Source: Desulfobacteraceae bacterium
GTDB taxonomy: Bacteria; Desulfobacterota; Desulfobacteria; Desulfobacterales; Desulfobacteraceae
Direction of reading: 5' to 3'
DNA: 7,581 bases
NCBI GenBank assembly: GCA_022712835.1
Contig: JAFLJU010000131.1
Location: forward strand, 1 to 7,581
Shown: positions 3,065 to 7,581 of the stretch, in pieces
Position numbering within the stretch: position 1 is the stretch's first letter
Layout: each line of letters opens with the position of its first letter
The notes under the pieces: model-generated
Told to the model about the DNA's origin: nothing
Databases searched by the model: none
What the model saw: only the letters and a program-made list of their open reading frames with translations
Made by a program: the position numbers and the translations under genes

Positions 3065-3091
3065 TTCATTCCGATCCAAATCCACCGCCTA

Positions 3092-3112
3092 TTTTTTTTT
3101 AGCCCCCCCCCC
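3092..3112. repeat. Adjacent homopolymer tracts T9 and C10
   Basis: Nine T (3092-3100), then AG, then ten C (3103-3112), in the gap upstream of the flavodoxin-ferredoxin gene and just past the lactonase terminator. The C tract can pair with G5 at 3124-3128, making a second stem after the terminator. Long mononucleotide runs are prone to slippage in replication and to miscounting in sequencing. Confidence 0.7.
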
Positions 3113-3129
3113 AAAGATAAATCGGGGGA

Positions 3130-3165
3130 AAAATGATACGGGGGACCCAATACTAAGGTCCCCCG
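3130..3165 (-). terminator. Rho-independent terminator of the lactonase/AbfT/AbfD cluster
   Basis: Read on the minus strand, a perfect 9-bp stem CGGGGGACC (3165-3157) / GGTCCCCCG (3147-3139) with a 9-base loop is followed by TATCATTTTT (3138-3129). It lies 37 bases past the lactonase stop codon. The U run begins a few bases after the stem, slightly later than ideal, but the stem is strong. The plus-strand side has no T run, so it works in one direction only. Confidence 0.75.
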
Positions 3166-3201
3166 CCGTGGTCATGGTAACAATTCAAATCACACAGATT
3201 T

Positions 3202-3981
3202 TCAGGAATAATATTCCGGTGCCTGTTTGAATTGCTTCCAGGCTTCAGGGTCATGGCCGGTCACAATTTTCACCCCTCGGGACTCCTGTAAAAAGCGCAT
3301 GCGTTCCACCGAGCGCACGGTTTCACCGGCGCTCCACATCAAACCGGGAAGGGTGCCATTTTCCAGATTGTCGCTGGTATAGCAGGCGTCGGCTGCAAAA
3401 AACATCGGCCCGCTTTCAGGCAGGTTGACCAGGATGGACTGGTGCCCCGGAGTATGCCCCGGGGTAAAATAAATTTGTATGGCCCCGTCATCAAAGAGGT
3501 CAAATTTATCGTCATCCCAGCCATTGAGAATAAACCAGTCCACATCCTTGTCAAAATCCTTTCGAATATAAGCCGCCTTCATATAGGGATCCGGAACATA
3601 GGCAAAATGCAGTTCGTCGCGCTGGACAATATAACGGGCATTGGGAAAATGGCCCACACAGCCAGCATGGTCCAGATGCAGGTGGGAGAGGATGACATAT
3701 TTAATTTCTTCGGCTGAGCACCCCGCCTTTTCAATGGCATTGACACACCATTGTTCCTGGGTCATGACCGGATCATAGGCTGCGAGAACATCTCCCCAGT
3801 GTTCTTCTTTCTCATTAATAGTTTCAAAGGCACACCCCGTGTCAAACAAAACTTTTCCCTGGGGATGATCGATGAGAAGGAAGGGGACGGGTACTTCAAA
3901 GTCATCTCCCACACCACTATTGAGGGTAAAATAGTGCTTCTGGCTTTTCAGGGTACCGGCTTCAAAAAAATAAAGCTTCAT
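3202..3981 (-). CDS. AttM/BlcC-like lactonase (gamma-butyrolactone or N-acyl-homoserine lactone hydrolase), metallo-beta-lactamase fold
   Basis: A 259-residue dinuclear-zinc hydrolase that opens lactone rings, probably cytosolic (no signal peptide). The metal-binding signature HLHLDH is at residues 100-105, with His176 in TPGHTPGH, the bridging Asp198 in ADACY and His243 in TGHDP. Tyr201 matches the catalytic Tyr194 of AiiA. All seven ligands of the AHL-lactonase family are present. From memory, the blocks GTLKSQKH, EVPVPFLLI, YIRKDFDK, ETVRSVERMR and VTGHDPEAWKQFKQAPEYY follow Agrobacterium AttM/BlcC more closely than Bacillus AiiA. AttM/BlcC cleaves gamma-butyrolactone to 4-hydroxybutyrate and can also act on AHLs. 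The start at 3981 has AAGGAG 6 bases upstream (3988-3993). It is the last gene of the cluster, 90 bases after abfT, and its likely product, 4-hydroxybutyrate, is the AbfT substrate. This context favours gamma-butyrolactone over quorum signals; the fold is certain, the substrate inferred. Confidence 0.93.
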   Translation of the reverse strand: MKLYFFEAGTLKSQKHYFTLNSGVGDDFEVPVPFLLIDHPQGKVLFDTGCAFETINEKEEHWGDVLAAYDPVMTQEQWCVNAIEKAGCSAEEIKYVILSHLHLDHAGCVGHFPNARYIVQRDELHFAYVPDPYMKAAYIRKDFDKDVDWFILNGWDDDKFDLFDDGAIQIYFTPGHTPGHQSILVNLPESGPMFFAADACYTSDNLENGTLPGLMWSAGETVRSVERMRFLQESRGVKIVTGHDPEAWKQFKQAPEYYS

Positions 3982-4023
3982 GGAATTCTCCTTGGTGTTA
4001 AGGTTAATTTAGGCTTCAGTTTA

Positions 4024-4054
4024 CTAAAAGATAGCCCCGCATCCAGGCCGGGCC
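4024..4054 (-). terminator. Weak hairpin between abfT and the lactonase gene
   Basis: On the minus strand, GCCCG (4053-4049) can pair with CGGGGC (4039-4034) around a loop of about 9 bases with one bulged base, followed by TATCTTTTAG. This is a poor terminator at best. It could be a partial attenuator that lowers lactonase expression relative to abfT/abfD, or an mRNA processing stem. Confidence 0.3.
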
Positions 4055-4071
4055 GAAAATATTAAGGCGGT

Positions 4072-5373
4072 TTAAGACGATTCCTGGATGGACGCCTTCC
4101 AGTTCCTTTGCAATTCTTCTTGAAATTCTGGTGCAGCAATCTCCACCAGGGCCTTTGCACGCTCTTTAACGGTTTTCCCCCTCAATTGGGCGATGCCGTG
4201 TTCAGTAACCACGTAGTCCACATCATTGCGGGAGGTGGTTACTGCCTGGCCGGGTGCCAGGGTAGCCACGATCCGAGATACCTTGCCCCTAGCTGCAGTG
4301 GCTGGCATGGCAATGATACTCCGCCCCCCCCTGGACCGCCGGGCCCCCCGAATAAAATCCACCTGGCCGCCCACTCCGCTGAACTGCCTGGGTCCCAGGG
4401 TGTCGGCTGCCACTTGGCCAAAAAGATCCACTGCAATGGCTGAATTTATGGAGACCATATTGTCGTTCTGGGCGATGATGAAAGGATTGTTGGTGTAGTC
4501 TACCGGGTGGCACTCGATCATGGAGTTATTGTCCAGCCACTGGTAAAATTTGCGGGTGCCCATGGCAAAGGTGATGATGATTTTGGAAGTGTGCAGGTTC
4601 TTGCGGCGGCCGTTGATCACCCCATTTTCCACCAGATGCATCACCCCGTCTGATACCATCTCCGAGTGAATACCCAGATCTTTTTTATCATTGAGAAAGG
4701 ACAAGGTTGCATCGGGAATGGCACCTATACCCAGCTGAAGACAGTCACCGTCCCGGATCAATTGGGCGGCATGAGACCCGATGGCCTGCTCCAAATCACC
4801 GATAACAGGGGGTTTCATCTCGATGATGGGTCTTTGGCTCAGCACGAAATGATCAATCTGACTGACATGGAGACTGGCATTGCCAAAAGTCCTGGGCATG
4901 TGGGGCGTGACCTCGGCAATTACCTTTTTAGCGCTCAGGGCGGCCTGGCGGGTGTAATCCACGGAAACACCCAGGGAAACATTCCCGACCTTGTCCGGCG
5001 GAGACACGGTGATCATGGCTACATCCACGGGCAGCACCTTGTCACGGAACAGCCAGGGAATTTCCGAGAAAAAGCAAGGGGTATAGTCTGCCCGGCCATC
5101 GGCAATAGCTGCACGGGTGTTGCCGCCGGCAAACAATGAATTATGGCGGAAGGATCCGGCATACTCAGGTTGACAATAGGGGCTTTCCCCCATGGAAACC
5201 ATATGAACAATTTCCACCTGTTTAAGCTCCTTGGCCCGTTTGACCAGGGCCTCGAGCACAGGTTCCGGTGAGCCGCAGGCATGGGCCGCCACCACCCGGT
5301 CTCCTGACCGTACAAAGGCTGCGGCCTCATCCAGGCCGACCTGCCTGGATTCATAATACGCTTTCCAATTCAT
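4072..5373 (-). CDS. abfT: 4-hydroxybutyrate CoA-transferase (acetyl-CoA hydrolase/transferase family)
   Basis: A 433-residue family I CoA-transferase that moves CoA from acetyl-CoA (or a similar acyl-CoA) to 4-hydroxybutyrate, giving 4-hydroxybutyryl-CoA in the cytosol. The catalytic glutamate, which forms the glutamyl-CoA thioester, sits in GIHSEM at residues 234-239. It is Glu238, the same number as the active-site Glu reported for AbfT of Clostridium aminobutyricum. Other family marks are HACGSPE (31-37), LGIGAIPDA (214-222), the CoA-site loop GVGGQVDF (333-340) and VTEHGIAQLRGKT (389-401). The length matches the family. The start at 5373 has AAAAGGAGC 8 bases upstream (5382-5390). It lies 69 bases after abfD and 90 before the lactonase gene, all on one strand. 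The abfD neighbour strongly supports 4-hydroxybutyrate as substrate; a butyryl- or acetyl-CoA:acetate transferase would be the alternative for this fold. Confidence 0.92.
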   Translation of the reverse strand: MNWKAYYESRQVGLDEAAAFVRSGDRVVAAHACGSPEPVLEALVKRAKELKQVEIVHMVSMGESPYCQPEYAGSFRHNSLFAGGNTRAAIADGRADYTPCFFSEIPWLFRDKVLPVDVAMITVSPPDKVGNVSLGVSVDYTRQAALSAKKVIAEVTPHMPRTFGNASLHVSQIDHFVLSQRPIIEMKPPVIGDLEQAIGSHAAQLIRDGDCLQLGIGAIPDATLSFLNDKKDLGIHSEMVSDGVMHLVENGVINGRRKNLHTSKIIITFAMGTRKFYQWLDNNSMIECHPVDYTNNPFIIAQNDNMVSINSAIAVDLFGQVAADTLGPRQFSGVGGQVDFIRGARRSRGGRSIIAMPATAARGKVSRIVATLAPGQAVTTSRNDVDYVVTEHGIAQLRGKTVKERAKALVEIAAPEFQEELQRNWKASIQESS

Positions 5374-5442
5374 AGTGATCTGCTCCTTTTAGATTCGATG
5401 ATCTTTCAATTGAGTTTCAATGCCTGGGATCAATTATTGGGG

Positions 5443-6891
5443 TCAATGTTTGGGCTCTATGCCACAGAGTTTCTTGGCCAGCTTCTGCTTGGTCCCAAGG
5501 TTGACCTGGCGGGAGATCATGATGCGCTGGGCCTGGGGAGAACCTGCTCCGTGCATGGATTCGGTCAGATATCCCACGGCGGCTGTGCCCAGGGTGAGGT
5601 TCTCAATGAGACGCAAAATCCGCATCCTGTTTTCCAGAGGCACCTCCGGATTTGTCTGGAAATATTTTTTGACCCATTTGCCTGTTTCAGGCGAATGCAA
5701 ATCCTTTTCCGAGGGCAGAGTGACCATGAGGCCGCCGGCCACATCCTGTGCCAGGCGGGCTATTTCATAGGGCAGCCGGGTAACGTTCTGCTTGTGCACA
5801 TTGGCCAGCAGGGTGTTGACATAATAGGTGCCCGAGGGTTCCTGATGACCCTCACAGGCACAGGCAATACAGCCGCAAAACAGGGTCTCGTTGAGCTGAT
5901 TCATCTCGATGATCTTGTCTTTGATGTGGGAGGCCCTTGCCGCACCGTTATATTCGGCAATGGTCTGGGTAGCCCCGATGAGTACATCCCCCACACCCAC
6001 CTTGCAGGCATAACTCTGGCGATGGTAGGAGGCAAACTGCTCCACAAGCTGGCCGGCAAACTCATGTTCACCCAACATGAATACCCTATTCCAGGGGACA
6101 AAGACGTCATCAAACACCACCAGGGCCTCATGGCCACCGTAAAGCACATTGCCCACATCAAAGGTGTTGCCTTCCAGTTTGCGGGTATCGCAGGACTGGC
6201 GACCCATGATATAGAGGATGCCTTCGGTGTCCGCAGGCAGGGCAAAGGAGACGGCATAATCCTTATCCTTTGGTCCCATGGAAATGGTCGGCATCACAAT
6301 GACCTCGTGGGAGTTGACCGCGCCGGTCTGATGGGCCTTGGCCCCCCTGACCACAATCCCATCCTTTTTTTCCTCTACAACCCTCAGATACAGGTCCGGG
6401 TCGTGCTGGCCATGGGGAGGCAGGCTGCGGTCTCCCTTGGGATCGGTCATGGCCCCGTCGCAGGTCAGATCGTTTTCCTGGACATGGGCCAGGTAGCTTA
6501 AAAACCTGGCATGGTATTCGCTCCCGTATTCCTGATCGATGTCGTAGGTGGTCATGGATAAAGCGTTAAGGGCATCCATCCCCACGCAGCGCTGGAAGCA
6601 GCACCCGGTGTGGGCCCCCATGAGCCGTCCCATTTTACTTTTTTTCACCAGATCATCCACCCCCTGGTGGATATGGGTAAACCGGTTGATTTTCTTTCCC
6701 GAAAGGTGGGAGGTGGCGGTCATCAGATCTTCAAATTCCGGCTTATGGGCCATTTCATAGGTCTGGGCCACAGCCTTCATACTCGGACGGATGATGGGAT
6801 GATCCACCACATTGGTGACCTTCTCCCCGAACATGAAAACATTCAGGTTCAGTTTTCTCAGACTGGCTTCATACTGCTCTGCGTTCATCAT
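5443..6891 (-). CDS. abfD: 4-hydroxybutyryl-CoA dehydratase / vinylacetyl-CoA delta-isomerase
   Basis: A 482-residue FAD and [4Fe-4S] enzyme that dehydrates 4-hydroxybutyryl-CoA to crotonyl-CoA by a ketyl-radical mechanism. It belongs to the acyl-CoA-dehydrogenase-like / 4-hydroxyphenylacetate 3-hydroxylase family, is cytosolic and oxygen-sensitive, and is a homotetramer in the Clostridium enzyme. Cluster ligands are visible: Cys98 and Cys102 in CCFQRC, His290 in SYHRQSY, and Cys296. Residues matching the studied Clostridium active site are Gln100, Thr189 (AHQTG), Glu255 (GGHEAL), Tyr294, Lys297 and Glu444 (LTESMHGAGSPQAQ). Clostridium AbfD, as I recall it, has SYGGCK where this protein has SYACK, so one residue is missing beside the cluster. 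The first in-frame ATG after a TAA (6912-6910) is 6891, giving MMNAEQY, close to the known N-terminus; a GGAG lies 11 bases upstream (6903-6906). It is the first gene of the cluster, 69 bases ahead of abfT, downstream of a sigma-54 activator gene. A related dehydratase with another substrate cannot be excluded. Confidence 0.93.
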   Translation of the reverse strand: MMNAEQYEASLRKLNLNVFMFGEKVTNVVDHPIIRPSMKAVAQTYEMAHKPEFEDLMTATSHLSGKKINRFTHIHQGVDDLVKKSKMGRLMGAHTGCCFQRCVGMDALNALSMTTYDIDQEYGSEYHARFLSYLAHVQENDLTCDGAMTDPKGDRSLPPHGQHDPDLYLRVVEEKKDGIVVRGAKAHQTGAVNSHEVIVMPTISMGPKDKDYAVSFALPADTEGILYIMGRQSCDTRKLEGNTFDVGNVLYGGHEALVVFDDVFVPWNRVFMLGEHEFAGQLVEQFASYHRQSYACKVGVGDVLIGATQTIAEYNGAARASHIKDKIIEMNQLNETLFCGCIACACEGHQEPSGTYYVNTLLANVHKQNVTRLPYEIARLAQDVAGGLMVTLPSEKDLHSPETGKWVKKYFQTNPEVPLENRMRILRLIENLTLGTAAVGYLTESMHGAGSPQAQRIMISRQVNLGTKQKLAKKLCGIEPKH

Positions 6892-7325: not shown

Positions 7326-7581
7326 TTACTGGGTGGTCTGAATATTGTAACGCTGGAGTTTTCGCACCACCGTGGACTGATTCACCTTAAGCGCCTCTGC
7401 CATTTGGCGGGTGGTCCTGTGCCTGGCCAGGGCCTGCTCTAGAACATTGCGCTCCACATCGGCCAGAATCTCAGACAGGGGGCGGTGGTCATAACCGGCC
7501 AGGGAAGCTGTGGGAACCCGGCCGCACCAATTATTGGGGAGGCTTCCGGGAATAATGATCTCCCCCGGGGTAATCACCACC
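7326..7581 (-). CDS. Sigma-54-dependent transcriptional activator, C-terminal end only
   Basis: Only the last 84 complete codons are in the window; the reading frame stays open to the edge. It ends in a Fis/TyrR-type helix-turn-helix: a helix at about residues 36-52 (ILADVERNVLEQALARH), then TTRQMAEALKVNQSTVVRKL as the DNA-binding unit. The preceding stretch ITPGEIIIPGSLPNNW (about 3-18) corresponds to the end of the AAA+ domain, where many activators read G-x-I-x-x-x-D-L-P. Family members hydrolyse ATP to open sigma-54 RNA polymerase promoters, often after sensing a ligand or signal through an N-terminal PAS or ACT domain that is not visible here. It lies upstream of abfD on the same strand, so it is the likely local regulator of 4-hydroxybutyrate/lactone use. 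That link is inferred from position and nearby palindromes. Confidence 0.88.
   Translation of the reverse strand, partial: VVITPGEIIIPGSLPNNWCGRVPTASLAGYDHRPLSEILADVERNVLEQALARHRTTRQMAEALKVNQSTVVRKLQRYNIQTTQ

Follow-up and report, generated by a model that had tools for sequence, protein, structure and literature searches.

A candidate operon for anaerobic gamma-butyrolactone catabolism that joins a BlcC-like lactonase to AbfT and AbfD

Introduction

A stretch of DNA from a Desulfobacteraceae bacterium, 7,581 nucleotides in length and here called the window (the whole stretch analyzed, to which all coordinates refer), carries a lactonase gene next to abfT and abfD, which encode a putative 4-hydroxybutyrate coenzyme A (CoA)-transferase and a putative 4-hydroxybutyryl-CoA dehydratase. 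The closest described systems share 4-hydroxybutyrate as an intermediate. Clostridium aminobutyricum uses the abfH-abfT-abfD route. This route, which serves the fermentation of 4-aminobutyrate and succinate, is also dealt with in passages of a report on C. difficile (PMC10534356), and the conversion of 4-hydroxybutyrate to crotonyl-CoA by AbfT- and AbfD-type enzymes is described in part of another (PMC8659255). In Agrobacterium, according to the passages of PMC5924552 concerned with it, the blcABC (attKLM) operon degrades gamma-butyrolactone to gamma-hydroxybutyrate and succinate semialdehyde, with partner genes of the lactonase consuming the 4-hydroxybutyrate. Those passages, together with the gene order read from the Agrobacterium sequence, where BlcB, an iron-containing alcohol dehydrogenase (Fe-ADH), lies beside the lactonase, bear out an earlier sequence-only reading of the window, which had described the Agrobacterium lactonase as paired with BlcB and BlcA in a route through succinate semialdehyde.

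The window resembles both systems and departs from both. Its lactonase is of the same family as BlcC (47.7% identity), whereas BlcA (succinate semialdehyde dehydrogenase) and BlcB have no homologue there and AbfT and AbfD are found instead; the regulator is of the TyrR/Fis type (sigma-54 type in relatives), in contrast to the IclR regulator BlcR of Agrobacterium. AbfT and AbfD belong to the same families as those of the abfH-abfT-abfD route, with intact catalytic residues, but no Fe-ADH type dehydrogenase was found in the window, and the lactonase could supply the 4-hydroxybutyrate. The sequence-only reading had likewise listed no 4-hydroxybutyrate dehydrogenase, and tblastn with BlcA, BlcB, and the Fe-ADH probes gave no match in the window at an E value of 1e-3. 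In one open-access library, among the papers listed and judged by title and start of abstract, no description of a lactonase and a 4-hydroxybutyryl-CoA dehydratase as one pathway was found, a weak absence in that most subscription journals lie outside it. No paper there combined 4-hydroxybutyryl-CoA dehydratase, lactonase, and butyrolactone, and within that scope no description of an operon of this make-up turned up, as had been supposed; the one paper with abfD, 4-hydroxybutyrate, and lactonase, PMC10534356, mentions them in unrelated passages, and the dehydratase occurs together with homoserine lactone in PMC11509705 and PMC11508158. The enzymes and both half-pathways are known; what did not turn up in this literature is the combination of the two, or a lactonase clade whose partners have been exchanged. 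We regard the operon as a variant of the established Blc pathway for lactones, coupled to the equally established Abf route, and it is likely, in our judgment, that the three genes form an operon by which an anaerobe catabolizes gamma-butyrolactone (or a closely related gamma-lactone).

Results

The three genes lie on the minus strand in the order of transcription abfD (5443..6891; 482 amino acids), abfT (4072..5373; 433 amino acids), and the lactonase gene (3202..3981; 259 amino acids), preceded by the end of a regulator gene and followed by a strong intrinsic terminator (3166-3138, minus strand) with an 11-pair stem and a T-rich tail. Gaps of 69 bp (AbfD-AbfT) and 90 bp (AbfT-lactonase) separate genes that would be transcribed together, a purine-rich stretch precedes all three start codons, and the terminator region (3200-3125) folds at -26.8 kcal/mol (z, -2.5 versus shuffles). 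The single strand and the single closing terminator were thus as first read. The span of 3202..6891 first given to the unit holds for the three genes but leaves out the adjacent regulator gene, by which the operon is probably controlled and which should then be counted in the unit. All three enzymes were assigned from their open frames, Pfam, PDB relatives, and residue alignments, with NCBIfam in addition for AbfT and the lactonase, and the Pfam and PDB sequence comparisons were concordant on all of them.

The lactonase has the metallo-beta-lactamase fold, and the HxHxDH motif and the His, Asp, Tyr, and His of the dimetal site are all present. H100, H102, D104, H105, H176, D198, Y201, and H243, whose metal-site roles we take to be those of the corresponding AiiA residues, did not vary in 25 core lactonase rows that included BlcC (up to two gaps allowed); in an alignment of 39 database proteins, H100, H102, H176, D198, and Y201 were invariant, and D104, H105, and H243 were kept in at least 90%. 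Since AHLLactAttM was the best NCBIfam model but the score (348.2 bits) fell outside the curated equivalog (cut-off, 390), the protein was named BlcC/AttM-like, and the full set of metal ligands and the AttM/BlcC likeness noted from sequence both stood. The predicted structural model had a pLDDT (predicted local distance difference test) of 93.5, and its best fold match was AhlX (9khq), a lactonase of N-acyl homoserine lactones (AHLs), with a template modeling (TM) score of 0.96 and 47% identity. The nearest solved relatives are named for AHLs and pyridoxolactone.

AbfT carries the acetyl-CoA hydrolase/transferase domains PF13336 and PF02550, and its nearest PDB relative is 3eh7, "4-hydroxybutyrate CoA-transferase" (E, 7e-145); it was also aligned to 3gk7. 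At the position aligned with the catalytic Glu238, AbfT of the window and all 10 relatives compared have Glu, in agreement with the earlier assignment. AbfD is nearest to 1u8v (E, 5e-202) and was aligned to 6vjr as well. His292, Tyr296, Cys299, and Lys300 were kept in 13 of 13 rows and Cys99 and Cys103 in 12 of 12 (L015 is cut there), so that the call of a 4-hydroxybutyryl-CoA dehydratase was upheld; the numbering is that of the C. aminobutyricum enzyme, in which the three Cys and one His are presumably the cluster ligands, with Tyr296 and Lys300 in the roles assumed for them. A separate observation is that AbfD of the window, of L001, L002, and L034, and of 6vjr has one residue fewer between the cluster His and Cys than 1u8v and the other aligned relatives.

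AbfD has a [4Fe-4S] cluster and flavin adenine dinucleotide and works through ketyl-radical chemistry, AbfT takes CoA from acetyl-CoA or another acyl-CoA, and crotonyl-CoA is degraded by beta-oxidation. In the pathway that we propose, the dimetal lactonase would open the ring of gamma-butyrolactone to yield 4-hydroxybutyrate, AbfT would transfer CoA to it from such a donor, and AbfD would dehydrate the 4-hydroxybutyryl-CoA and isomerize the product to crotonyl-CoA, from which beta-oxidation would give two acetyl-CoA. Each reaction is established chemistry; that this operon performs them, and in this direction, is what we infer.

To find related loci, lactonase peptide patterns alone were scanned against one genome per species, and 16 loci were obtained. 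AbfD lay within 5 kb of the lactonase in seven (L001, L002, L007, L008, L013, L015, and L016), whereas the AbfD density of these genomes (23 matches in 72.8 Mb) would give 0.055 by chance. These loci are not independent, L001/L002 and L007/L008 being close kin, and even four of 16 would give a P value of 2e-7. In samples of whole genomes, some of which overlap those of the pattern scan, the lactonase was matched in 4 of 395 (phylum of G004; E ≤ 1e-50), 6 of 242 (order of G001; E ≤ 1e-60), 5 of 55 (class of G007), and 3 of 398 (Bacillota, the phylum of G013); since so few genomes of each sample matched, the lactonase is uncommon. Seven further loci at 50% identity or more came from these samples, with AbfD in five (L034, L036, L037, L044, and L045), Fe-ADH in L035, and L038 cut.

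The main set comprised 24 loci besides the window with a lactonase at least 50% identical to that of the window; a contig end truncates L012 and L038, and L048, reached via AbfD, has only a lactonase fragment. AbfD was near the lactonase in 13 of the 24 (the 12 named above and L048; truncated by the contig end in L015), and these had a full AbfT in 10 cases, an N-terminal AbfT piece in L048, and other CoA-activating genes in L016 and L037. In nine others (L003, L004, L005, L006, L009, L010, L011, L012, and L035), an Fe-ADH adjoined the lactonase or lay one gene off (L009); that of L005 is GldA-like and that of L009 BlcB-like. Neither partner was found in L014 and in the cut L038, nor, by the same probes, beside the more distant lactonases of L039 and L040 (38 to 40% identity), and AbfD and Fe-ADH occurred together in no examined stretch (probes at E 1e-15; stretch lengths differ). 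A neighborhood search, proposed with the sequence-only reading, thus found all three genes together in 10 other loci, and two further loci in which different CoA-activating genes accompany AbfD and the lactonase, so that the trio is not unique to this genome. Since the arrangement recurs in other genomes, chance linkage of the three genes is very unlikely, and a binning error is unlikely because the trio of G768 sits on a 2.4-Mb contig. The AbfD-lactonase pairing spans distantly related anaerobes, being present both in genomes of the Desulfobacterota type and in Bacillota. Among the 398 genomes of the Bacillota sample, 43 matched AbfD (E ≤ 1e-150), and all three lactonase genomes were among them with the genes close together (hypergeometric probability, 0.0012), although only two of the three are independent of the choice of sample, G013 being its center.

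The Fe-ADH loci indicate that the partners of this lactonase clade have been exchanged. Seven of them (all but L005 and L009), in Desulfopila and other genomes, have lactonases of the same clade, 54 to 82% identical to that of the window, and a sigma-54-type regulator adjoins five of the seven (the probes found none in L011 and L035), but Fe-ADH takes the place of AbfT-AbfD. In the class of G007, both kinds occur side by side: L006 and L012 consist of regulator, Fe-ADH, and lactonase, while L007, L008, and L036 have a related regulator and the lactonase, with AbfT-AbfD convergent alongside. The regulators of the latter three are 50% identical to that of L003 and those of L006 and L012 54 to 56%, and the lactonases of the two groups are equally close to that of the window (77.5 to 79%); thus, L007, L008, and L036 have a regulator and lactonase of the Fe-ADH-locus kind and yet are partnered by AbfT-AbfD. 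G012 holds both types in one genome: L012, which is an Fe-ADH locus, and L037, on a separate contig, which has AbfD, a lactonase 51% identical, and an AMP-binding ligase in the place usual for AbfT. L016 has AbfD, two PF01144 CoA-transferase genes, a class III CoA-transferase gene, and the lactonase, followed by crotonase, SDR, thiolase, and acyl-CoA dehydrogenase genes, a downstream set that fits onward oxidation of crotonyl-CoA.

On a lactonase tree of 25 rows (L038, L044, L045, and L048 left out), the AbfD label required seven changes, at least three of them forced by well-supported branches, and its clustering did not exceed that of shuffles, 118 of 500 of which scored as low. An AbfD tree of 21 rows, 8 of them from AbfD places away from lactonase loci, was not relied on for partner changes, because its change count of 3 is too high (L048 was labeled lactonase-free). 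Judged from the nearest lactonase and AbfD relatives on the two trees, the host is probably of the Desulfobacteraceae kind. By analogy with BlcB and BlcA in Agrobacterium, all of these partner sets plausibly consume 4-hydroxybutyrate. We lean slightly toward a view in which a sigma-54 sensor and a gamma-butyrolactonase form an exchangeable front end that has been joined repeatedly in anaerobes to 4-hydroxybutyrate sinks, be it Fe-ADH, AbfT-AbfD, other CoA-transferases with AbfD, or a ligase with AbfD. Moreover, the series first proposed, from lactone to 4-hydroxybutyrate to CoA ester to crotonyl-CoA with 4-hydroxybutyrate as the shared intermediate, is strengthened, since the same lactonase clade has an Fe-ADH elsewhere instead.

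The regulator gene at the window end (7326..7581, minus strand) is cut there, and the 84 C-terminal amino acids seen contain HTH_50 and HTH_8 domains. The piece is most similar to the C terminus of the regulator that lies upstream of the trio in L001, a protein with PAS, sigma-54-interaction, and HTH domains (55% identity over 80 amino acids). Among the 24 loci, 16 were found to have a sigma-54-type regulator (11 of the 13 with AbfD and 5 of the 9 with Fe-ADH). Operon heads were scanned for a -24/-12 site within 250 bp, with at least 9 of 12 consensus letters and a shuffle fraction of at most 0.05 (the shuffles keep base composition only; L015, L022, L044, L045, and L048 were omitted), and 14 of 24 had one. 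In L007 and L036, sigma-54-type sites precede both units within 250 bp; the AbfD-side site of L008 lies about 400 bp up. Probably, a sigma-54-type activator encoded next door switches the genes on.

Several other genes lie near the trio or near AbfD. In the window, downstream of the terminator, are an EFR1-like ferredoxin gene (score under that model's cut-off), a gene (1796-2134) for a 112-amino-acid protein that matches nothing in Pfam or NCBIfam, and dnaK, truncated at the window end; no RNA family reached its gathering score in the window, and no tRNA was found there. Elsewhere, a different protein of about 112 amino acids, which bears a CGGCN motif and one further Cys cluster, adjoins AbfD in loci with and without lactonase (L007:12402-12719, L008:8601-8939, L036:12348-12686, L045:7100-7453, and L048:about 2701-2985) and is also near AbfD in L034, L037, L047, L049, and L050. 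It had no Pfam match in the three loci scanned (L008, L036, and L045), a search of the window at E 1e-3 did not find it, and it may serve the cluster or maturation of AbfD. A NifU-like protein is encoded between AbfD and AbfT in L013 (8356-8652; Pfam match) and, by sequence similarity, in L045 (6838-7152) and L048 (2400-2705), possibly for iron-sulfur loading of AbfD. L048 (G016 contig 45) also has the N-terminal part of AbfT fused to the C-terminal part of the lactonase (3077-3815), which we read as a deletion or assembly error between neighboring genes of a former trio. Genes for a branched-chain-amino-acid-type ABC transporter and an EamA transporter follow the trio in L045 (10657-15429) and are a candidate uptake system, and in L034 a nearby gene for a polyester synthase of the PhaC type (6583-8379) may link 4-hydroxybutyryl-CoA to polymer storage.

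Discussion

The evidence favors gamma-butyrolactone, or a closely related gamma-lactone, as the substrate of the lactonase. Because the Abf and Blc sets share 4-hydroxybutyrate, with the Fe-ADH set consistent though unproven, gamma-butyrolactone is the simplest choice. Several results weigh against this conclusion or against the wider scheme. In both sequence and fold the lactonase is nearest to AHL lactonases, and none of the three enzymes reaches its NCBIfam equivalog cut-off; for AbfT, the best model is that of butyryl-CoA:acetate CoA-transferase (320 bits versus a cut-off of 675). The Fe-ADH partners plausibly consume 4-hydroxybutyrate, but that of L003 scores 183 bits against the 500 of the 4-hydroxybutyrate dehydrogenase model and is 28% identical to BlcB. 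L014 carries neither partner, the lactonase tree is moderately supported, with stars on 7 of its 22 inner branches, and by the strict scan the window has no canonical sigma-54 site upstream of the operon, the sole and weak candidate (7014-6999, minus strand) having 8 of 12 consensus letters, with GA instead of GC at -12.

Further, 40 of the 43 AbfD genomes of the Bacillota sample have no lactonase at E 1e-60, and the lactonase is therefore an optional addition. This accessory-like distribution, and its place as the last gene of the trio, would also suit a repair function. 4-Hydroxybutyryl-CoA cyclizes spontaneously to gamma-butyrolactone. If it and free 4-hydroxybutyrate, which is prone to lactonization according to part of PMC7147479, were lost from the pathway in this way, the lactonase would only recycle a dead-end product, and the true entry compound would be 4-hydroxybutyrate, whether produced inside the cell or imported. 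We consider this unlikely, however, since 9 of the 24 loci pair the same clade with Fe-ADH and have no AbfT or AbfD in the examined stretch. Among eight Fe-ADH genomes searched (a group to which G413 does not belong), AbfD (E ≤ 1e-50) was not found in five (G003, G004, G005, G009, and G010) and was elsewhere in the genome in three (G006, G011, and G012); given the five, the job of the clade is not always tied to the CoA ester. The separate sigma-54-type site ahead of the lactonase in L007, L008, and L036 likewise speaks against repair.

Metallo-beta-lactamase-fold lactonases are promiscuous, and, to go by their names, the closest relatives of known structure have AHLs and pyridoxolactone as substrates, so that the natural substrate might be another, for example, a substituted, gamma-lactone, with AbfT and AbfD acting on the matching 4-hydroxyacyl compound. 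The known substrate of 4-hydroxybutyryl-CoA dehydratases is unsubstituted, though, and AbfD keeps the aligned catalytic residues of those enzymes, which makes such a substrate quite improbable. That the lactonase serves to destroy AHL signals, and lies beside abfT and abfD incidentally, agrees with its best family model (AttM, below cut-off) and its AhlX-like fold but is most improbable in view of the excess of AbfD neighbors over chance among the 16 loci found by lactonase alone, with Fe-ADH near in eight of the other nine. AHL activity is itself likely, the predicted model matching AhlX, and by itself would not settle the role, since BlcC both opens gamma-butyrolactone and degrades AHLs, as stated in part of PMC5924552. 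A search for the LuxI family matched none of 17 host genomes, and its positive control likewise matched nowhere.

If gamma-butyrolactone is indeed the substrate, the operon would provide a genetic basis for its anaerobic breakdown that bypasses succinate semialdehyde, and this can be put to a direct test, given a trio of marker genes and three enzymes whose chemistry is known. It would also suggest that, among the genes annotated as N-acyl homoserine lactonases in sulfate reducers and in anaerobic members of the Bacillota, some encode catabolic enzymes rather than destroyers of signals. Were the exchangeable front end true as well, gamma-butyrolactone would be a genuine growth substrate in anoxic places, consumed in part via a radical dehydratase.

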